NCBI RefSeq assembly: GCF_005937885.2
Contig: NZ_CP042176.1
Location: forward strand, 3,281,501-3,345,500
From: Bradyrhizobium sp. KBS0727
GTDB lineage: Bacteria > Pseudomonadota > Alphaproteobacteria > Rhizobiales > Xanthobacteraceae
Length of the DNA: 64,000 nt
Direction: 5' to 3'
Shown here: in pieces, positions 2,000 to 11,479 of the stretch
Layout: each line of letters opens with the position of its first letter
Numbering within the stretch: the stretch's first letter is position 1
Notes under the pieces: generated by a model
Databases searched by the model: none
Told to the model about the DNA's origin: nothing
What the model saw: the letters and a program-made list of their open reading frames with translations, nothing else
Made by a program: the position numbers and the translations under genes

Positions 2000-4753
2000 T
2001 TATCCCCGGGCCTTGCCCGCGCTCTTCTTCGCGGGCGGTTTGGATGCTGCCGGCTTGGCCGCCGACGTCTTGGCTGCAGAGGCAACCGGCGCGCGCGCCT
2101 TGCTCACGGCATTCGCCTTCGGTTTCGCTGCCGCCTTCTTCACCGCGGCCTTCTTGGCAGGCTTTGGCGCGTCGGGATCGGCAGGTTTGGCGGCGGCCTT
2201 CTTCGGCGCGGCTTTCTTGGCGCCACGCTTGGGCTTGCCGCCGCCCTTGGCGGCGCGTTCGTCGATCAGCGCGATGGCTTCCGCGAGCGTAATCGTCTCC
2301 GGCGTCTTGTCGCTCGGGATCGTGGCATTGACGCCACCTGACGTGACATACGCACCGTAGCGGCCGTTCTTAACCGCAACCCCGCCGAGGCTCGGGTGTT
2401 CGCCGAGCGGCTTGCCGGGATCGGCGCCGAAACGACGTCCGCTCGGGCCTTTTGCAATTTTTTCGGCGATCAGCGTCACCGCGCGGTTGAGGCCGATGTC
2501 GAACACCTCGTCGCCGGCCTCCAGGCTCGCATAGGTTTTTTCGTGGCGCACGAACGGGCCGAAGCGGCCGATGCCGGCGGTGATCGGCTCGCCGGTTTCC
2601 GGATGCTTGCCGATTTCGCGCGGGAGCGACAATAGCTTCAGCGCCAGTTCGAGCTCCATGTCGCCGGGCGACATGTTCTTCGGAATGCCGGCGCGCCGGG
2701 GTTTTTCGCCCTCGGCATAATCCTTTTGCTCGCCGAGCTGGATGTAGGGACCGAAGCGTCCGGCTTTCACCGTGACGTCGAGATCGGTCGCCGGATCCTT
2801 GCCGAGCACGCGGTCGGCGCCGGCTTCGCCGTCGGCAGCCAGCGGACGCGTGTGCCGACATTCGGGATAGTTCGAGCAGCCGACAAAGGCGCCGAACTTG
2901 CCGGCCTTCAGGTTGAGCCTGCCGGTGCCGCAGGTCGGGCATTGCCTGACATCGCCGCCATCCGCGCGCGGCGGATAGATGTGCGGTCCCAACATGTCGT
3001 CGAGCACGTCGAGCACTTCGGAGACGCGAATGTCCTTGATGTCGGCGACCGCGCCGGAAAAGCCGACCCAGAACTCCTTCAGCACCTGCTGCCAGGAGAT
3101 CTCGTTGTTGGAAATGCGGTCGAGCTGCTCCTCCAGATTGGCGGTGAAATCGTATTCCACATAGCGCGCGAAGAAGTTCTCCAGGAACGCGACCACGACG
3201 CGTCCCTTGTCCTCGCCATGCAGTCGCTTCTTCTCGAGCTTGACGTAACCGCGGTCCTTCAGCACCTGCAGGATCGATGCGTAGGTCGAGGGACGGCCGA
3301 TGCCGAGCTCTTCCATCCGCTTGACCAATGATGCTTCCGAGAAGCGCGGCGGCGGTTCGGTGAAGTGCTGCGTGACCGCAAGGTTCTGCCGCTTCAGCGC
3401 TTCGCCCTCGCTCATGGCGGGGAGGCGGCGACTGTCGTCATCGTCGGCGTCGTCGTCGCGGCCTTCCTGGTAGAGCGCGAGGAAGCCGTCGAACTTCACG
3501 ACCTGACCGCTGGCGCGCAGGTCCAGCACGCGGGAGCCGGCCTTCGCGGCGATATCCACCGTGGTGCGTTCGAGTTCGGCCGATTCCATCTGGCTCGCGA
3601 TGGTGCGGATCCAGATCAGCTCATAGAGCTTGGCCTGATCGGTATCGAGGCGGCGGCGCATTTCGGCGGGCCGGCGCGACAGGTCGGTCGGGCGGATCGC
3701 TTCGTGCGCTTCCTGCGCGTTCTTGGCCTTGGTCTGGTACTGGCGCGGCGCATCCGGCACATAGGCGTTGCCGTAGTCCTCGCCGATCACCTTGCGCGCC
3801 TGCGTGATCGCAGAGCCGTCGATCTGCACGCCGTCGGTTCGCATATAGGTAATGAGACCGGTGGTCTCGCCGCCGATATCGATGCCCTCATAGAGCCGCT
3901 GTGCGATCCGCATCGTATGCGCCGGCGCAAAGCCGAGCTTGCGGCTCGCTTCCTGCTGCAGTGTCGAGGTGGTGAAGGGCGCCTGCGGATTGCGGCGCGC
4001 CGGTTTGGCTTCGACCGTCGAAACCGTGAAGTTCGCGGCCTCGATCGCCTTCTTGAACTCTTCGGCTTCCGCGCCCGATCCGATGTCGAGCCGCTGGATC
4101 TTCTTGCCGTCGGCGCCGACCAGGCGGGCCTCGAAGGCGTCGCCGCGCGGCGTCGTCAGCGTTGCCACCAGCGACCAGTATTCGCGCGCGACGAACTTCT
4201 CGATCTCGAGTTCGCGGTCGCACACCAGCCGCAGCGCCACCGACTGCACGCGGCCGGCCGAGCGCGCGCCCGGCAACTTGCGCCACAACACCGGCGAGAG
4301 CGTGAAGCCGACTAGATAGTCGAGCGCCCGGCGCGCCATATAGGCGTCGACCAGCGCGCCGTCGATCTGGCGCGGCGCCTTCATGGCATCCGTCACCGCC
4401 TGTTTGGTGATCGCGTTGAACACGACGCGCTCGATCTTGTGGTCCTTGATCGCGCGCTTCTCTTTCAGCACTTCCAGCACGTGCCAGGAAATCGCTTCGC
4501 CCTCGCGGTCAGGGTCGGTTGCGAGGATCAGGCGGTCGGCGCCCTTGAGGGCCTTGGCGATGTCGTTGAGCCGGCCGGCCGCCTTGGGGTCGACCTCCCA
4601 GATCATCTGAAAATTGGCTTCCGGATCGACCGATCCGTTCTTGGCAGGCAGGTCGCGAACATGGCCGAACGAGGCCAGAACCTCATAGGAGGCGCCCAAA
4701 TATTTGTTGATCGTCTTGGCTTTCGCCGGCGACTCCACAATGACGATATTCAT
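2000..4753 (-). CDS. topA: DNA topoisomerase I (type IA)
   Basis: This enzyme relaxes negative supercoils by breaking and rejoining one DNA strand. The ATG at 4753 gives 917 residues beginning MNIVIVESPAKAK. That is the usual Toprim start, with Glu8 and the DPDREGE acidic motif at 80-86, so the longer open frame upstream is rejected. The catalytic tyrosine is Tyr303 in ITYMRTDG. A four-Cys zinc ribbon (CPTC...GCSNYPEC) follows the core, then three Topo-C-like repeats (GRFGPYIQLG, GRFGPFVRH, GRYGAYVTSGG), and finally a Lys/Ala/Pro-rich tail of about 90 residues, as is common in rhizobial TopA. The stop abuts the rnr GTG. Confidence 0.97.
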   Translation of the reverse strand: MNIVIVESPAKAKTINKYLGASYEVLASFGHVRDLPAKNGSVDPEANFQMIWEVDPKAAGRLNDIAKALKGADRLILATDPDREGEAISWHVLEVLKEKRAIKDHKIERVVFNAITKQAVTDAMKAPRQIDGALVDAYMARRALDYLVGFTLSPVLWRKLPGARSAGRVQSVALRLVCDRELEIEKFVAREYWSLVATLTTPRGDAFEARLVGADGKKIQRLDIGSGAEAEEFKKAIEAANFTVSTVEAKPARRNPQAPFTTSTLQQEASRKLGFAPAHTMRIAQRLYEGIDIGGETTGLITYMRTDGVQIDGSAITQARKVIGEDYGNAYVPDAPRQYQTKAKNAQEAHEAIRPTDLSRRPAEMRRRLDTDQAKLYELIWIRTIASQMESAELERTTVDIAAKAGSRVLDLRASGQVVKFDGFLALYQEGRDDDADDDDSRRLPAMSEGEALKRQNLAVTQHFTEPPPRFSEASLVKRMEELGIGRPSTYASILQVLKDRGYVKLEKKRLHGEDKGRVVVAFLENFFARYVEYDFTANLEEQLDRISNNEISWQQVLKEFWVGFSGAVADIKDIRVSEVLDVLDDMLGPHIYPPRADGGDVRQCPTCGTGRLNLKAGKFGAFVGCSNYPECRHTRPLAADGEAGADRVLGKDPATDLDVTVKAGRFGPYIQLGEQKDYAEGEKPRRAGIPKNMSPGDMELELALKLLSLPREIGKHPETGEPITAGIGRFGPFVRHEKTYASLEAGDEVFDIGLNRAVTLIAEKIAKGPSGRRFGADPGKPLGEHPSLGGVAVKNGRYGAYVTSGGVNATIPSDKTPETITLAEAIALIDERAAKGGGKPKRGAKKAAPKKAAAKPADPDAPKPAKKAAVKKAAAKPKANAVSKARAPVASAAKTSAAKPAASKPPAKKSAGKARG

Positions 4754-4926
4754 GTCATTCCAATAGCTTACGGGAAAAGATAAAGGCCGGTATCGCGAGA
4801 CTCGCGCCAGCCGTTTCGGACCGAACATGGGGTGGTGAGGCCCCCCTGTCAAATCGACAGATATTGAGCAGGGAGGCGCGGGATGCGACTTTGTATTTAT
4901 AGCGCTGCAGAATACGTCCTAGAGTT

Positions 4927-5226
4927 GTGTCAATAAACCGGCTATTTCTGAATTATATTGTGTTGGATTGGGATACCGATTTATTGAGCAAGGCACGGGG
5001 CGGCCGGAAGCGCACGGCTTCGGGTGGAGCCGGGCGATCTTCAACGGATGAACGCGACGGGGAGGGCGGCCCCGACGAGGCCGTGGCCTTCATCGCGGAA
5101 ACCGTGGCCGAATTGGTCAAGCTCGCAAAGAACCACCGGCTTGAGGTCCTCAGCCACCTGCTCGGCATGGCACAGCTCGAGGCGGAAGAGCGGATGCGGA
5201 CCCGCAGCAAGCGCAAGCTGTCGTGA
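4927..5226 (+). CDS. Small hypothetical protein, helical C-terminus
   Basis: I recognise no domain. The frame encodes 99 residues from a GTG; GTG 4960 or TTG 4963 are plausible alternatives, giving about 87 residues. The first half is rich in Gly, Arg and Asp and is probably disordered. The second half (DEAVAFIAETVAELVKLAKNH onward, written here as a pattern of regularly spaced Ala/Val/Leu) looks like one long amphipathic helix ending in a basic tail. It lies between the divergent topA promoter and the convergent hxlR gene. Codon use is consistent with coding but there is no independent support. Confidence 0.55.
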   Translation: MSINRLFLNYIVLDWDTDLLSKARGGRKRTASGGAGRSSTDERDGEGGPDEAVAFIAETVAELVKLAKNHRLEVLSHLLGMAQLEAEERMRTRSKRKLS

Positions 5227-5232
5227 GCGCCG

Positions 5233-5709
5233 CTATGTCGTAACCCGCTGGCCAGGCTTTCCGGCAGGTCGTCGCTGCAACGCCGTATCCGCCTGTGTCA
5301 GCAGCCTTCCGTCCTCGGAATGCAGTTCGAGTTTGCGCACCGGCCGGCCGTTCTCCTTGTCGACCAGGATGGTGGCAATCTCCTCCGGCCGCTCGTCGAA
5401 TTCCTCGCTCCATTGGCGTAGCGCGACCAGAACAGGAAACACGCCGCGGCCCTTCGGCGTCAGCAGATATTCCTGATAGGCGCTGCCGTCGGAGGCGGGC
5501 GCCGTTTTCAGGATGCCCTGATCGACCAGCGCCCGCAGCCGCACCGTCAGAATATTCTTGGCGAGCCCCAGTTTCTTCTGGAATTCGCCGAAACGACGGC
5601 TGCCAAACAAGGCCTCGCGAATAATCAGCATCGACCACCAGTCGCCGATCGCATCCAGCGATCGTGCGATCGGGCAGTCGTCGCGCTCAAAGCTCGTCCG
5701 TTTCACCAT
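5233..5709 (-). CDS. HxlR-family transcriptional regulator
   Basis: This is a winged-helix regulator of the HxlR/DUF24 type, 158 residues from the ATG at 5709. The family signature is clear: a conserved Cys12 in DDCPIARSLDAIGDWW, the recognition helix region (FGEFQKKLGLAKNILTVRL) and the wing (YLLTPKGRGV). In related proteins Cys12 senses quinones or other electrophiles; sensing here is inferred. The gene is divergent from an SDR oxidoreductase, and the 112-bp gap holds a large palindrome that is the likely shared operator. The open frame extends upstream antisense to the SDR gene, but the family N-terminus fixes this start. Confidence 0.9.
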   Translation of the reverse strand: MVKRTSFERDDCPIARSLDAIGDWWSMLIIREALFGSRRFGEFQKKLGLAKNILTVRLRALVDQGILKTAPASDGSAYQEYLLTPKGRGVFPVLVALRQWSEEFDERPEEIATILVDKENGRPVRKLELHSEDGRLLTQADTALQRRPAGKPGQRVTT

Positions 5710-5752
5710 GGCTATCTCCGCCGGGACAGCAGGACCGATCACGGTCTTGTGT

Positions 5753-5808
5753 GGTTGCATTATAAAACCAGACGCCCTACGTAGGCAATCTAGTTTAATA
5801 ATGCAACC
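5753..5808. promoter_or_regulatory. 56-bp concentric palindrome, likely HxlR operator
   Basis: The outer arms 5753-5772 and 5789-5808 are 20-bp inverted repeats matching at 18 of 20 positions (core GGTTGCATTAT / ATAATGCAACC). At the exact centre sits a 10-bp perfect palindrome CCTACGTAGG (5776-5785). Over the whole 56 bp, 23 of 28 base pairs are symmetric. It lies between the divergent hxlR and SDR start codons, 13 bp from the SDR ATG, where autoregulated HxlR operators are usually found. Confidence 0.75.
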
Positions 5809-5821
5809 AACGGAGACTGTT

Positions 5822-6595
5822 ATGAGGCTGGCAAACAAGACGGCGTGGATCACCGGCGGCAATGCCGGCATCGGCTTGGCGACTGCGAAACTGTTCGTTG
5901 CGGAGGGCGCGAAAGTGCTGATCACGGGACGAAACCAGGCGACGCTGGAGGCCGCCGCAAAGGAACTCGGGCCGAATGCGCTCGCGATCGTCGCCGATGC
6001 GACCGATATCGCCGCCACCGACGCCGCCCTCAAGCAGGCCGCGGCAAAGTTCGGCAAGCTCGATATCGTGTTTGCCAATGCAGGCATCGCCGGACCGTCG
6101 CCACTCGGTAGCACCACGCTTGCGGCGTTCGACAATGTGATCCGGACCAATCTCACCTCGGTGTTCTTCACGGTGCAGTCGGCGCTGCCGCACCTCAACG
6201 ACAACGCCTCGATCATTTTGAACGGATCCGTGATTTCCGTGCTCGGCATTCCCGGCCAATCGGCCTATGCCGCGGCCAAGGCCGGCGTCCGCGCGATGGC
6301 GCGCTCCATGGCGTCGGAACTGTCGCCGCGCGGCATCCGCGTCAATGTCGTGTCACCCGGCGCGATCCGCACAGCGATCTGGGGTGCTGCGGTCGCAACG
6401 CCGGAAGCCGAAAAGGCGTTTGAAAAGCGGATTGCATTGTCCACCCCGCTCGGACGGCTCGGCGAGACCGATCAGGTGGCCAAGACGGTGCTGTTCCTCG
6501 CTTCCGATGACGCCTCTCACGTTCAGGCCCAGGAACTGTTCGTCGATGGCGGCGCGACGGCGTCACCGAGCGGCGCACCGATCTATCGCGGATAA
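5822..6595 (+). CDS. SDR-family NAD(P)-dependent oxidoreductase
   Basis: This is a classical short-chain dehydrogenase/reductase of 257 residues from the ATG at 5822. It has the nucleotide-binding motif TGGNAGIG (11-18), the structural NAG motif (NAGIAG near 86), catalytic Ser136, Tyr149 and Lys153 (YAAAK), and the C-terminal FVDGG pattern. The substrate cannot be read from the sequence. Its divergent HxlR regulator suggests induction by an electrophilic or quinone-like compound, which is inference. The start is chosen from the SDR N-terminus and the ribosome site CGGAG shortly upstream; the longer open frame would run through the operator and into hxlR. Confidence 0.9.
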   Translation: MRLANKTAWITGGNAGIGLATAKLFVAEGAKVLITGRNQATLEAAAKELGPNALAIVADATDIAATDAALKQAAAKFGKLDIVFANAGIAGPSPLGSTTLAAFDNVIRTNLTSVFFTVQSALPHLNDNASIILNGSVISVLGIPGQSAYAAAKAGVRAMARSMASELSPRGIRVNVVSPGAIRTAIWGAAVATPEAEKAFEKRIALSTPLGRLGETDQVAKTVLFLASDDASHVQAQELFVDGGATASPSGAPIYRG

Positions 6596-6785
6596 ACTTC
6601 TTCCAAATTATCGAATCGGGTCAGTGCCATCGGGCGAAAAATTCTTTCACCGGTTGCGCTGTCCGGTTCCCTCGTCTGGCGGACGTATTTTTGAGGCGCG
6701 CTCAAAAACATTGAACCTTCGTGGCAGGTGCCAAGACATTCCCAAGGGCCGGGATTTTTGACTACGAAATTCATTGGAGGCAGTC

Positions 6786-6944
6786 ATGCCGAAAGCCGCC
6801 CGCATCGCTAAGCCGATTGTCACCGAGTCCGCATCAGAGAATTCGGATATCACCCAACTGGTTTCAATCGCGTTGTTTTCAGGTATCGGTCTTTTGATCT
6901 CGCTCGTTGCCGTCATCCTGGGCGTACAGGGCGTCTGGTACTGA
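6786..6944 (+). CDS. 52-residue single-pass membrane peptide
   Basis: The ATG is preceded by a strong GGAGG five bases upstream (6776-6780). The peptide starts MPKAARIAKPIV, continues with a short polar stretch, and ends in one hydrophobic helix of about 22 residues (LVSIALFSGIGLLISLVAV) before VQGVWY and a TGA. The short basic N-terminus suggests N-in topology. I know no function. Ribosome site, hydrophobic pattern and coding-like composition support a real gene. Confidence 0.6.
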   Translation: MPKAARIAKPIVTESASENSDITQLVSIALFSGIGLLISLVAVILGVQGVWY

Positions 6945-6966
6945 AAATCTCCGTCATCATGTGACA

Positions 6967-6999
6967 CCCGCCTGCCGCAGTCGTCAGGCGGCAGGCGGT
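6967..6999. terminator. Strong hairpin between convergent genes
   Basis: A 10-bp perfect stem (CGCCTGCCGC 6969-6978 with GCGGCAGGCG 6988-6997) lies between the stop codon of the 52-residue peptide and the convergent azoreductase stop. There is no T-run, so intrinsic termination is uncertain. Confidence 0.35.
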
Positions 7000-7018
7000 G
7001 CCGGCACGAAGTTTCCTG

Positions 7019-7627
7019 CTACGCAGCGTTGAGGCTGCCCGCTGCTCTCAAGGCATCTGCCACCGCTTTTTCGCGATGCTCGGGGCCGACCTGGATACCG
7101 TCGGCGGAAATGAATTCGGGATTGGCCACGCCTATAAAGCCGAACACCCAACGCAGGTAGGTTTCCAGATGTTCGCCGACCGCAGCCGGCGTGCCCGCGC
7201 CATAAAATCCGCCGCGTGAGATCGCAACGATGACGCGCTTGTTGCCGACGAGGCCTTCAACACCCTGCGCGCTGTATTTGAACGTCTTGCCCGCCACCAG
7301 GATGCGGTCGATCCAGGCCTTGAGCTGGCTCGGAATCGTGAAATTGTACATGGGCGCGCCGAGCACGACGATGTCGGCGGCGAGAAACTCTTCCAGCACG
7401 GTCTGGCCGGCGGCGATGTCCGACTGTAGCGCGGCCTCGGGCTCGGCGCCCTGACCGGCGGCCAGATGAGATCCTGAGAGATGTGCCAGTGGCGTCAGCG
7501 TCAGGTCGCGGTAGCTGACGTCGAGGTGAGGGGTTGCCTTGCGCAGCCGATCGACGATGGCGGCGGAAACCTGGCGGCTGACGGAGTGGGGCCCCAGCAC
7601 GCTGGAGTCGATGTGGAGAAGTTTCAT
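7019..7627 (-). CDS. azoR: FMN-dependent NADH-azoreductase
   Basis: This is a flavodoxin-fold quinone/azo reductase of the AzoR (AcpD) family, 202 residues from the ATG at 7627. The N-terminus MKLLHIDSS with a following SVSRQ matches the FMN phosphate-binding region, and [17 protein letters not shown] is the family signature. The SRGG near residue 140 is the second FMN contact region. The enzyme reduces quinones and azo compounds with two electrons. It is divergent from an HxlR regulator, a common pairing in which the regulator senses quinone or diamide stress; that role is inferred here. Confidence 0.92.
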
Positions 7628-7704
7628 AGGTGTCACCCTTGGTATAAGTTTGTAACTGGCGCTATATGAGTGACCACCTATATTTCCCGCAAGAACGCAC
7701 AATT

Positions 7705-7742
7705 TTGAAACCCGAGCACAGTCTTGAAACCTGAGCACACCC
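7705..7742. repeat. 19-bp tandem duplication at hxlR start
   Basis: Two adjacent 19-bp units (7705-7723 and 7724-7742), both beginning TTGAAACC, match at 16 of 19 positions. The second contains the TTG that opens the downstream HxlR frame; the first puts a TTG one frame away. Confidence 0.7.
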
Positions 7743-8155
7743 ATGTGCCTGTCCTGCCGCCCAGTCCGCATCTCGACAGCGACTGCCGCGGCGTCGCCTC
7801 GATCCTGGCCCGGGTCGGCGACAAATGGAGCGTGTTCGTCATCATGATGCTCGGCGACGGCCCGAAGCGCTTCAACGAGATCAAGCGCATGATCGGCGGC
7901 ATCTCGCAGCGAATGTTGACGCTGACGCTGCGCGGCCTCGAGCGGGATGGCCTGGTGACGCGAACCGTATTCCCGACCATCCCGCCGCGCGTCGATTACG
8001 AACTCACCGATCTCGGGCGCGGTCTGTCGAAACCGGTCGAGGCGCTCGGCAAATGGGCGTTCGATCATCGGGTCGAGATCGAAAGCGCGCGAACGAAATT
8101 CGACGGGCGCAACGACAAAGCGTTTTCAAGCGAAGTGGATACCGGTTCGCGTTAA
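7724..8155 (+). CDS. HxlR-family regulator with repeat-derived tail
   Basis: This is a winged-helix regulator of 143 residues, divergent from azoR. Core motifs are [18 protein letters not shown], with the family cysteine, then [18 protein letters not shown] and [11 protein letters not shown]. No ATG is available. TTG 7724 is the first candidate, inside a tandem duplication, and GTG 7745 is a good alternative. The final residues (about [11 protein letters not shown]) are encoded by a dispersed intergenic repeat starting at 8117, so the ancestral C-terminus was probably shorter or different. It likely controls azoR and itself. Confidence 0.85.
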
Positions 8156-8175
8156 GAAAACGCGTCAAATAATAA
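8117..8175 (+). repeat. Dispersed repeat, copy A (partial)
   Basis: This is the first module of a repeat found four times in the window. It starts AAAGCGTTTTCAAGCGAAG and ends GAAAACGCGTCAAA, giving a GCGTTTTC/GAAAACGC inverted pair around a central ACCGGTTCGCG. It overlaps the 3' end of the upstream hxlR gene and provides its TAA. The 3' hairpin module seen in the other copies is absent. Confidence 0.75.
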
Positions 8176-8572
8176 TCGACTAGGCCGTGAACCCATGCAT
8201 CTACCTGGCGGACGGCCTGCTAAAGTCCGCTGTGCACCGATGGCGACCAAATTCTGCAACGCAGCTAAATGACGCAATGGGCCAACTCCGGACATTCCCA
8301 GGAGCCGCAGTCGCCGCCTCCGGGCAGTATGCCAATCGGACCTTCGGGCGAAGCCACCTGTTTCTCAACCGCGTCAGGTGGCGTAGAATGTAGTTGCCCT
8401 TGAAGCGGGACGTGCCGAAATCGCCGTTCGGGGCGAACGAGCAGCACTGGTGCCATCGGCAGGCACGTTCCCTTAAGAGACCGACCCTTTTTTCGGTTTC
8501 GCGCCACCATTCACCACGAAGTGTGCACGCCGCTTCTGCGGCGGCTCGCTGCGTAACGTCGGGAGAAAGGCG
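8176..8572. other. Intergenic region, no gene supported
   Basis: About 400 bp follow the repeat. Short open frames on both strands lack ribosome sites or recognisable products. No convincing promoter or RNA structure was found. Confidence 0.5.
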
Positions 8573-8980
8573 ATGAACAAGATCGATCGAAGGTCAGCAC
8601 TGGGAATCGGGTTGGCAGCGGCTTCGGCGGCTATGATGAAGCCCGCCGCCGCTCAAACCACGGGCTACAAGGATACGACGCCGTGGCCGGGTGTCGTGGT
8701 GCGTGCTTATGATGGCGAGACACCATCCCTCATCCCCGGTTTTAAGACCGTCTCAATGCGTGATGTGATCATGCAGCCGGGATCGAAGACGATGGGTCCC
8801 CCGATGATGAATGCCATGATCTGCCATATCCCCGAGGGGGAGCTTCGGATCGAGCAGGAGGGAAAGACCTTTACGGCCAAGAAGAACTTTGTCTGGACCT
8901 GCAACAAGGACACAAAGGAGCAGGCGCACAACGATGGGAATGCGGTCGCAATCATGCGGATCGCGGACCTGAAGGCTTAA
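8573..8980 (+). CDS. Exported hypothetical protein, cupin-like size
   Basis: The gene encodes 135 residues with a purine-rich ribosome site (GGGAGAAAGG) just before the ATG. The N-terminus MNKIDRRSALGIGLAAASA with a following AAAQ resembles a Tat signal peptide (RR then hydrophobic stretch), so export of a folded protein is likely. The mature part, about 107 residues, has alternating beta-prone segments (VIMQPGS, ICHIPEGELRIEQEG, FVWTCNKDT, AVAIMRIAD) reminiscent of a small single-domain cupin, but the metal-binding His pattern is not evident. Function is unknown. It sits in accessory-looking DNA. Confidence 0.75.
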   Translation: MNKIDRRSALGIGLAAASAAMMKPAAAQTTGYKDTTPWPGVVVRAYDGETPSLIPGFKTVSMRDVIMQPGSKTMGPPMMNAMICHIPEGELRIEQEGKTFTAKKNFVWTCNKDTKEQAHNDGNAVAIMRIADLKA

Positions 8981-9154
8981 GGCTCGTTTCTTCGCAAGAG
9001 ACCGATTACAGGTGCGGATAGCCTACGCGACGAGGATCGCGCCGCCGAGAGTCTATGGGTCATAACGACCCGACATGACAAACTCGCGGCCAACTATCAT
9101 TCATCAAGCTCGCATCAATCGGATTTGGCTACGTGCTAATGAGTCCGCGCCCTA
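8981..9154. other. Intergenic region left of the dprA-end duplicate
   Basis: No gene is supported between the exported-protein stop and the 50-bp duplicate at 9155. Confidence 0.4.
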
Positions 9155-9204
9155 CTAGATCAGCGACACCAATCCGCCGCCGTGACGTTCCAGCCGTCCG
9201 GCCA
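9155..9204. repeat. 50-bp direct repeat, duplicate of dprA 3' end
   Basis: This copy matches 10376-10425 at 49 of 50 positions. It contains the complement of the last 16 dprA codons and stop, with no other dprA sequence beside it. With the intact copy it brackets a block of about 1.2 kb carrying one gene. Confidence 0.9.
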
Positions 9205-9373
9205 GCGTCATTGAGGGCAATGCCGACATTCCGGTTGCCAGCCCGGACTTCTCAGTTTGACCCAAAAGCGACTTGGCAATCATTCAACAGATGTCGCCTG
9301 AACAGGTCTCCCACGGCTTTCAGCCTGCCAGTTGGGCCGCTATTATATCTTGCCCTGAATATGGAAACCCTTC

Positions 9374-10360
9374 ATGAGACGACGCGAATTTATTGCGACC
9401 GCCGGTGCTTTGGCGGTATGGCCGGAGTTGAGCCGGGCACAGCGCGCGGGCGATCGAATGGCGCGCATCATTTATCTCGGCGCAACAAGCGCCTCCGCGA
9501 TTGATCCGCGCCAGATCGAGCAGTTCAGGCGGGGCCTCGCCGACAACGGGTTGGTTGAGGGACGCAACATTGCGATTGAATATCTGTGGGCAGAAGGCAG
9601 GTTGGATCGGCTACAGTCGTTGTCGGACGAATTGGCGCGGCGCGATCTCGACCTTATTATCACTGCGGGCGGGCAGGCCGTACATGCGCTGATCGCGGCC
9701 CAGCTGAAGGCTCCGATCGTATTCGCGATCTATGGCGATCCCGTCGGCGATGGTGTTGTCGAGAGCCTGGCGCGCCCGGGCAAGAATCTGACCGGCCTGT
9801 CAATGGCGAATTCGCATCTGGAGAGCAAGCGGCTTGAACTGTTGAAGGAAGCATTTTCACCGCTCAAGCGCGTGGCCGTCCTGCACGACCCGAGCGCGTC
9901 GTCTTCGGCGGCCGTTATCGCCGATGTGCAATCCGGCGCGAGAACTCTGGGGGTTGAGGCCATGATCTTCGAGGCTTCTGACCCCGCACGGTTCGATACC
10001 ATCTTCGCTGAAGCGGTCGATCGGGGCGCAAACGGCTTGGCGGCGATGGCCTCTGCGGTCCTCAATTTTCACCACCGGTATCTGTGTGAGCTGGCCATGC
10101 GGCACCGCCTGCCTTCGATCTGGGAATCCTCCGGATATGTCAGGGATGGTGGGTTGCTCTCCTATGGCCCGAGCTTCCCCGACATGTATCGGCAAGCCGC
10201 CGGCTACGTCGCGAAGATTTTGAAGGGAACGAAGGCGAGCGACCTTCCGATTGAGCAACCGGTCAAATTCGAGCTCGCCGTCAACCTCAAAACTGCCAAG
10301 GCGCTCGGCCTCAACGTTCCGTCCACACTCATCACCCGAGCCGACGAGGTGATCGAATAG
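9374..10360 (+). CDS. ABC transporter substrate-binding protein (ABC_sub_bind family)
   Basis: This is a periplasmic binding protein of the tryptophan/tyrosine-type ABC_sub_bind (DUF534) family, 328 residues. The N-terminus MRRREFIATAGALAVWP is a Tat-like signal peptide. Family features are IIYLGATS, FRRGLADNGLVEGRN, the LDLIITAGGQA segment, FAIYGDPVGDGVVESLARPG and a C-terminal LGLNVPSTLITRADEVIE. No permease or ATPase gene is adjacent, so this is an orphan binding protein, which is common for this family in Bradyrhizobium. The ligand is unknown. It is the only gene inside the block bounded by the dprA-end direct repeats. Confidence 0.9.
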   Translation: MRRREFIATAGALAVWPELSRAQRAGDRMARIIYLGATSASAIDPRQIEQFRRGLADNGLVEGRNIAIEYLWAEGRLDRLQSLSDELARRDLDLIITAGGQAVHALIAAQLKAPIVFAIYGDPVGDGVVESLARPGKNLTGLSMANSHLESKRLELLKEAFSPLKRVAVLHDPSASSSAAVIADVQSGARTLGVEAMIFEASDPARFDTIFAEAVDRGANGLAAMASAVLNFHHRYLCELAMRHRLPSIWESSGYVRDGGLLSYGPSFPDMYRQAAGYVAKILKGTKASDLPIEQPVKFELAVNLKTAKALGLNVPSTLITRADEVIE

Positions 10361-10375
10361 AGCTGTTTTTGCTGC

Positions 10376-10425
10376 CTAGATCAGCGACACCAACCCGCCG
10401 CCGTGACGTTCCAGCCGTCCGGCCA
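10376..10425. repeat. 50-bp direct repeat, intact dprA 3' end copy
   Basis: This is the partner of 9155-9204. It forms the true end of dprA: its first three bases are the complement of the TAG stop. Confidence 0.9.
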
Positions 10426-11479
10426 ATTCGAGCTCGAGCAGCACCGTGCGCACGATCGTGGGCGAGGCGCCGGACATCCGGATCAGGTCGTCGAGGCTGA
10501 CGGGGCTCGGCCCGAGCAGATCGATGATGCGTGTGCGTTCGCTGGCGCCGGCGTCGAAATCGAGCGGTTCGCTCGCATCAAAGACGATCGGCCGCTCCAT
10601 GATCGGCGTCACCGCGTTGATGACGTCGGCGGCTTCCGTGGTCAGCGTCGCACCCTGCTTGATCAGGTCGTTCGTGCCGGCAGCGCGCGGATCGAGCGGC
10701 GAGCCGGGTACGGCAAAAACCTCGCGGCCCTGTTCGGCGGCCATCCGCGCCGTGATCAGCGAACCCGAGCGATGGGCCGCCTCGACCACGACGACACCGA
10801 GTGCCGCGCCGGAAATCAGCCGGTTGCGGCGTGGAAAGTCGCGGGCGCGCGGCACGTGGCCGAGCGGCATTTCGGAGATCGCGCCGCCATGCGTGAGCAA
10901 GGTGGCCAAGAGATCCTCATGCTCGGGCGGATAGATCCGGTCGTGGCCGCCGGCCAGCACCGCAACCGTGCCGGTTGGGATCGTGGATCGATGCGCGGCC
11001 TGATCAATGCCGCGCGCCAGCCCGGAAATGACGACGAAGCCGGCGTCGCCGAGATCGCGCGCCAATTGGCTGGCGAATTTCAGCCCGGCACCGGAGGCGT
11101 TGCGAGAGCCGACGATCGCGATCATCGGCCGCATCAGGACATCGGGCGCACCGCGCACGCCGAGCAGGGGAGGCGCATCGTCAAGCGTCGCCAGCCGAGG
11201 CGGATAGCCGGCTTCATCGGGGGCGACCAGCGAAACGCCGATCTTCCTGGCCGCCGCGAGTTCGGTCCGCGCCTCATCCTCGCTGCAAATTCGCCCGGAG
11301 CGCGCCGCCCCTCCGCGCCGCGCCAGATCGGGCAGCCGCTCCAGCGCCGTCCGCGCGTCGCCGAAATGGTTCAGCAGCGAGCGAAACGTCCGCGGGCCGA
11401 CATTGTCGGACCGGATCAGCCGCAGCCGGTCGATCCGGTCGGCGTCGGTGAGGCGTGGTGTTTGTGGCCGGTCGTGCAT
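10376..11479 (-). CDS. dprA: DNA-processing protein DprA
   Basis: DprA binds single-stranded DNA entering the cell and loads RecA during natural transformation; many non-competent bacteria keep it. The protein has 367 residues from the ATG at 11479. An N-terminal SAM-like region (residues 15-70) precedes the Rossmann-like core with [46 protein letters not shown] and [12 protein letters not shown], all diagnostic. The last 60 residues form a winged-helix DML1-like domain. Its final 16 codons are duplicated 1.2 kb downstream, beyond an inserted gene. Confidence 0.96.

Follow-up and report, generated by a model that had tools for sequence, protein, structure and literature searches.

The region considered here adjoins the dprA gene of Bradyrhizobium sp. 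KBS0727 and lies in a 64,000-nt stretch of its genome (C1:3281501-3345500), to which we refer as the window and to which all coordinates given without a contig belong; comparison genomes and loci are denoted by G and L numbers. The dprA gene itself is intact, encodes 367 amino acids with Pfam DprA domains and runs on the minus strand (10376..11479), with an amidase gene on the opposite strand (PF01425, 11605-12846) standing between it and plsY, and with topA situated away from it at ~2000-4852 (plsY and topA were named by eye). Convergent on dprA is a native gene for an HxlR-family regulator (Pfam HxlR; 7724..8155, plus strand), whose last ~13 codons (8116-8155) fall inside a dispersed REP-like repeat (8116..8177), giving the regulator a C-terminus unlike that of its relatives. 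The repeat has dozens of copies among the matches listed (at 84-98%, in G087 and G120), and it is also present at the same dprA-HxlR junction in L022. Between this repeat and dprA there lie, in order, a 974-bp cassette (8181..9154), a detached copy of the dprA 3' end (9155..9204, minus strand) and a 1171-bp fragment (9205..10375, plus strand) carrying one orphan gene for an ABC substrate-binding protein (SBP) of 328 amino acids (9374..10360, plus strand; PF04392 ABC_sub_bind, E 4e-38).

The detached copy and the corresponding end of the intact gene (10376..10425, minus strand) form a direct repeat, with the SBP fragment exactly between its two members, that is identical at 49 of 50 positions (one SNP), an agreement beyond chance. 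Within the genome of KBS0727 (7,308,448 bases searched, in one contig) the 50-mer was found at these two places only. Across 265 congeneric genomes, with three candidates scored per genome, the dprA 3' end was matched in 244, the other 21 thereby falling outside the duplication count, and two matches were seen in eight of the 244, KBS0727 among them. Among the seven two-match genomes other than KBS0727, which were searched a second time, the extra match in G101 is a dprA end on another contig of a MAG, and in the rest it is 21-35 nt long and lies on another contig or >150 kb away; a 50-bp duplicate beside dprA was found in KBS0727 only, among the 244 genomes with a dprA-end match. Similarly, the fetched DNA of 80 relative dprA loci, some of them just 3-10 kb long, held no dprA fragment elsewhere at E<=1e-4.

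The same 80 loci, mostly from Bradyrhizobium and from other species than KBS0727, allow the extent of the foreign DNA to be read from the dprA-HxlR junction. The HxlR block (window ~7019-8118) adjoins the dprA stop in 51 of the 80, with a gap of 2-367 bp in 50 of these and of 5.1 kb in the last, L029. In the other 29 loci the block is absent from the fetched DNA, 22 of them having >6 kb beyond dprA, and the neighbourhood is not universal. Ten further relatives, drawn from the eleven top-scoring matches for the 3' end of dprA, gave gaps of 2-145 bp in nine and of 2756 bp in the tenth (G177). As the HxlR block and the dprA stop of relatives nearly abut, the inserted DNA extends over ~8119-10375, and this stretch, SBP gene and cassette together, is a lineage-specific insertion made up of two arrivals. 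The original prediction was exact in its coordinates for a 49/50 repeat bracketing one orphan SBP gene, and its proposal of an insertion is borne out by other-species relatives that show the site without the insert; the old arrangement it had set against itself, in which all close relatives carry both copies, is contradicted. It had, however, taken the detached copy as the edge of the insert, and this copy lies instead inside the ~8119-10375 insertion. As for the comparison of dprA neighbourhoods that it proposed, sites without the insert are there, in relatives of other species whose genes nearly abut, and no integrase-type element was found. The long gap in L029, a Bradyrhizobium MAG, is a 5.1-kb insert at the same junction (~3755-8849) with at least two large ORFs, among which, as read by eye only, no integrase was seen.

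The cassette is defined by its IS5-type inverted tips, which form the sole inverted tip pair 100-3000 bp apart in the window (at most two mismatches) and match each other at 12 of their first 17 positions. Both tips carry TA, which is compatible with a TA target. Tip-type sequences in the window occur at 8181, 9154, 19891 and 24654 only, the last two being single IS5-type tip-like sequences elsewhere in it. The cassette begins with a constant left end (8181..8285; 100-111 nt in common, at 82-95%, between the G107 element and each of seven others, that of the window among them), continues with a cargo ORF (8573..8980, plus strand) for a 135-aa protein that has a signal-like start, appears cupin-like by eye and has no Pfam or NCBIfam match, and closes with a constant right end (9066..9154, plus strand), in which the terminal ~90 bp of a gene for an IS5-family transposase extend up to the tip. 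Of the 762 nt of the transposase stretch (NF033580/DUF4096, named from the transposase of element L242), 93 are left in the window copy, and the right-end similarity halts at the tip ...CGCCCTA in ten of the eleven copies compared, with differing flanks beyond. The cargo module (~680-790 bp) recurs at dozens of places among the matches listed, at 82-93%, and its flanks are mostly unrelated in 19 fetched loci, stretches of >200 bp being common only to L132/L133 (on both sides) and L124/L129/L130 (on the right side). At five of 20 loci of the cargo gene, the window included, one tip or both are no more than 700 bp from it (reversed pattern, none). Per 10 kb of sequence, tips number 0.59 around the cargo gene (19 loci) and 0.02 around dprA (99 loci).

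The ends of this cassette are shared by a wider family. In 12 chosen genomes, most of them preselected for showing ends or cargo gene, seven further elements (L239-L245) have other cargo between a left end of ~105 bp and a right end of ~50-95 bp, so that, with that of the window, eight elements from seven genomes are at hand; five genomes yielded no pair (no match to the ends in G005 and G008; ends present without a pair in G015, G019 and G054), and four left ends (L246-L249) had no right end within the fetched stretch. The cargo is a 251-aa protein without family in G107 (1405 bp), an alpha/beta hydrolase with a 582-aa protein without family in G017 (~3.54 kb), an alpha/beta hydrolase in one G004 element (1537 bp), a methyltransferase accompanied by a 248-aa IS5-family transposase in the other (L242, 2143 bp), a B12-binding protein in G157 (1034 bp), a PQQ dehydrogenase with a cytochrome c in G031 (2491 bp) and a DUF3300 protein in G047 (2128 bp). 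In all eight the cargo sits between the ~105-bp left end and the transposase end, of which 52-350 nt are kept in six of the other elements and all 762 in L242, the reference.

Such an arrangement recalls the mobile insertion cassettes (MICs) of other bacteria, of which modular MICs of the IS231 type are an example. MICs and transporter ISs (tIS) are described as IS-type inverted ends around passenger genes (PMC3129680, PMC9330008), and the window cassette likewise has IS inverted ends, a passenger gene unrelated to transposition and no complete transposase. The family as a whole resembles MICs and tIS in its inverted ends around passengers and in that seven of its eight elements are without a full transposase, L242 having one; it differs in its IS5-type ends in Bradyrhizobium and its different cargo in each of the eight, and its mobility is predicted. 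Compared with the IS5 family proper (NF033580), the tips, the transposase 3' end and the TA at the tips are alike, but no more than ~90 bp of the transposase gene remain in the copy of the window, which also contains cargo. We therefore class 8181-9154 as a putatively mobile passenger-gene cassette of the MIC/tIS kind. The 15 of 93 records listed in a literature search show that other bacteria are known to have such cassettes, and in the library searched no publication was found on mobile insertion cassettes of Bradyrhizobium, which is not proof that the family is unpublished; a search for IS5-family passenger elements in Bradyrhizobium gave only papers off-topic by title, and none was found that ties the genus to dprA as an integration site.

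The SBP fragment carries no such ends. Neither 9205 nor 10375 has an IS5-type tip (at most two mismatches), so that the inverted tips expected at the ends of an IS5-family insertion are lacking, and none of the 25 longest inverted repeats listed joins the two fragment ends. The first ~60 bp on its left are similar to spacers located close to SBP genes elsewhere, and the right end falls 15 bp past the SBP stop, inside a 3' flank common to a dozen SBP loci. With no inverted repeats and a common 3' flank cut after 15 bp, the ends of the fragment are not element ends. SBP-family matches occur in 233 of the 265 Bradyrhizobium genomes. The nearest SBP protein is 83% identical in amino acids and comes from G166, the next being at most 59% (265 genomes, up to eight candidates scored in each), and the G166 match covers window 9459-10364, that is, most of the gene and 4 bp past its stop only. 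At the DNA level the SBP stretch has no close match among the matches listed from 146 genomes (two candidates scored per genome), those outside its own genome being partial and at 66-80%. A recent local copy as source was set aside, the best listed paralogue in KBS0727 being at 42% in amino acids (eight candidates scored).

How, then, might the two pieces have come together beside dprA? The detached 50 bp adjoin the native side (HxlR, repeat and cassette tip), and are for this reason, in their native position beside the old flank, the old dprA end; the SBP fragment with the restored dprA end would have come later, or at least independently. We put at about even the chance that the two arrivals at this one site were those of the cassette and of a later SBP capture by illegitimate break repair. 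An IS5-type cassette would first have inserted at a TA adjoining the dprA stop, where the HxlR and dprA genes converge. Its tip would later have been broken, possibly through an IS5 transposase supplied in trans, and repair synthesis coming from the cassette side would have copied 50 nt of dprA from a sister molecule before it switched template to SBP-bearing DNA and copied 1171 nt of that; the new end would finally have been joined to the free end that starts with the dprA stop codon. A single such episode would leave dprA intact and produce a 50-bp direct duplication beginning at the tip. What the sequences show is the layout, the relatives lacking the insert, the ends of the cassette, the native position of the detached 50 bp and two Ku genes; the succession of events, with its break, change of template and end joining, is inferred. 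Only 0-2 bp separate the cassette tip, whose last TA may be the target, from the start of the duplication, a closeness that could also be accidental or arise if one hot spot was used twice independently. End joining is possible in this organism, given that two Ku genes score over the cut-off in its genome, although Ku is common in rhizobia and its presence supports the proposal weakly. The original prediction had left a choice among a decayed element, a mobilised cassette and a microhomology-mediated insertion, of which the last, illegitimate option fits best, and it had overlooked the mobile element that can be recognised at this locus, namely the cassette at 8181-9154 directly adjoining the detached 50 bp.

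A second course, homology-facilitated illegitimate recombination, is possible though rather doubtful. Here a donor with an SBP gene beside its dprA stop would have crossed over within dprA and been joined illegitimately on the other side, and the detached 50 bp would be the remnant of the recipient's dprA end. The process as such is described in PMC3240628, and a like route is proposed for displaced gene-end arrays in PMC5361080. Our locus is like it in that the remnant of a gene end stands next to new DNA while the anchor gene is intact; it differs in that no donor of the required layout was found. Such a donor must have its SBP tail exactly at the dprA stop, and the loci and searches of this analysis showed none; moreover, this course takes two steps against one, and the single SNP in the repeat carries no information on a donor-type dprA. 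A partial mirror image exists in G013 (L214), G009 (L215) and G016 (L216), where a 62-bp piece of the dprA 5' part (nt 28-89, matching the window dprA at 87-90%) is found upstream of the intact gene, at a distance of 1.2-1.5 kb. The ORFs between piece and gene show no clear similarity among the three genomes (best blastp E 0.006), and two of them, when scanned, had no Pfam family. This mirror case is, however, old and not clean: the piece is 142 bp from the amidase gene in G013, on the native side, but 930 bp from it in G009, no amidase gene lies within the fetched DNA of G016, and short stretches beside dprA are common to all three. Illegitimate break-repair capture at the cassette tip appears preferable to a crossover within dprA.

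That foreign DNA can stand directly against dprA elsewhere, a point in favour of such a crossover, is seen in G177, which has the most similar dprA among the relatives compared by DNA (88%; left flank 90%). There the tip of a cassette meets the dprA stop, reaching 2 bp into the dprA end, and the gene reads beyond its usual stop into the tip. A weak similarity to L181 (76% across 62 nt, E 4e-4) assigns this tip to the opposite, left end type, and the stretch at ~3216-5980 of L225 holds, inside the cassette end, the reverse transcriptase of a group II intron (RVT_1, GIIM). The window SBP has no DNA match in the G177 insert, which is treated as an independent insertion. We considered G177 as proof that the cassette came first and rejected it as such, its end type being opposite, its position ~3 bp off by eye and a group II intron lying inside. 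With a tip landing there in G177 as well, the junction at which HxlR and dprA converge has been a landing site more than once.

It is improbable that the SBP gene arrived in an IS5-type cassette of its own, the tips of which were later lost, with the 50-bp repeat as a by-product of rearrangement between two cassettes. SBP genes do occur inside such tips: in KBS0727 itself a 1436-bp stretch (C1:4482205-4483640, L181) has related IS5-type tips around an SBP gene, with only a short piece of transposase gene, and in G141 (L112) a tip-bounded stretch of 1374 bp carries another. In eight of 43 SBP loci the gene has one tip or both at a distance of no more than 700 bp (at most three mismatches), and the reversed pattern in none of the 43 (45 loci were given, of which 43 were usable and four had been given twice, and L181 had been fetched on account of its tips). 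Tip density is 0.67 per 10 kb across the 45 loci, or ~0.4 without the overlapping, tip-selected L181 and L182. On the other hand, 35 of the 43 loci are without a tip, as are both ends of 9205-10375.

Integrative elements in gene 3' ends leave a direct repeat together with a restored gene. The resemblance of the window to this outcome would suggest site-specific integration at the dprA 3' end by a tyrosine recombinase, the integrase having been lost later, but this is very unlikely, as the insert is a single SBP fragment with no integrase gene and no second dprA end stands beside dprA in the other 243 matched genomes or the 80 loci. Unlike known elements of this type, the insert has no recombinase gene, and no other occupied site or att-like copy was seen. 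Pfam scanning of ORFs of at least 80 aa in 8265-10360 named the SBP as the only family and found no recombinase, in agreement with the earlier remark that no integrase or transposase is visible, whereas the suggested use of the dprA 3' end as an att site finds no second instance in genomes, loci, or viral, phage and plasmid searches. Candidate att copies on viral contigs (17 pattern loci with 20-24 nt matches to the 50-mer, without dprA by tblastn) were rejected, as was the one plasmid record at >=80% query coverage, which is the dprA gene of a Sphingomonas plasmid (81%); the phage search returned no record at >=80% query coverage.

Taken more widely, it is conceivable, though unlikely, that IS5-type cassettes, their ends constant and their cargo exchangeable, shuffle genes throughout the genus and that cuts at their tips seed capture by templated repair, with ~50-bp duplications of the adjoining gene end and a stepwise accretion of genes at safe junctions, dprA-HxlR being one. 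The dprA locus indicates that a core gene can gain single genes as neighbours with no integrase involved and its own sequence unbroken, and that a gene end repeated directly does not by itself prove integration of such an element. With eight cargo sets in eight elements, the cassettes suggest a route by which genes are moved in Bradyrhizobium, where SBP genes of this kind abound.
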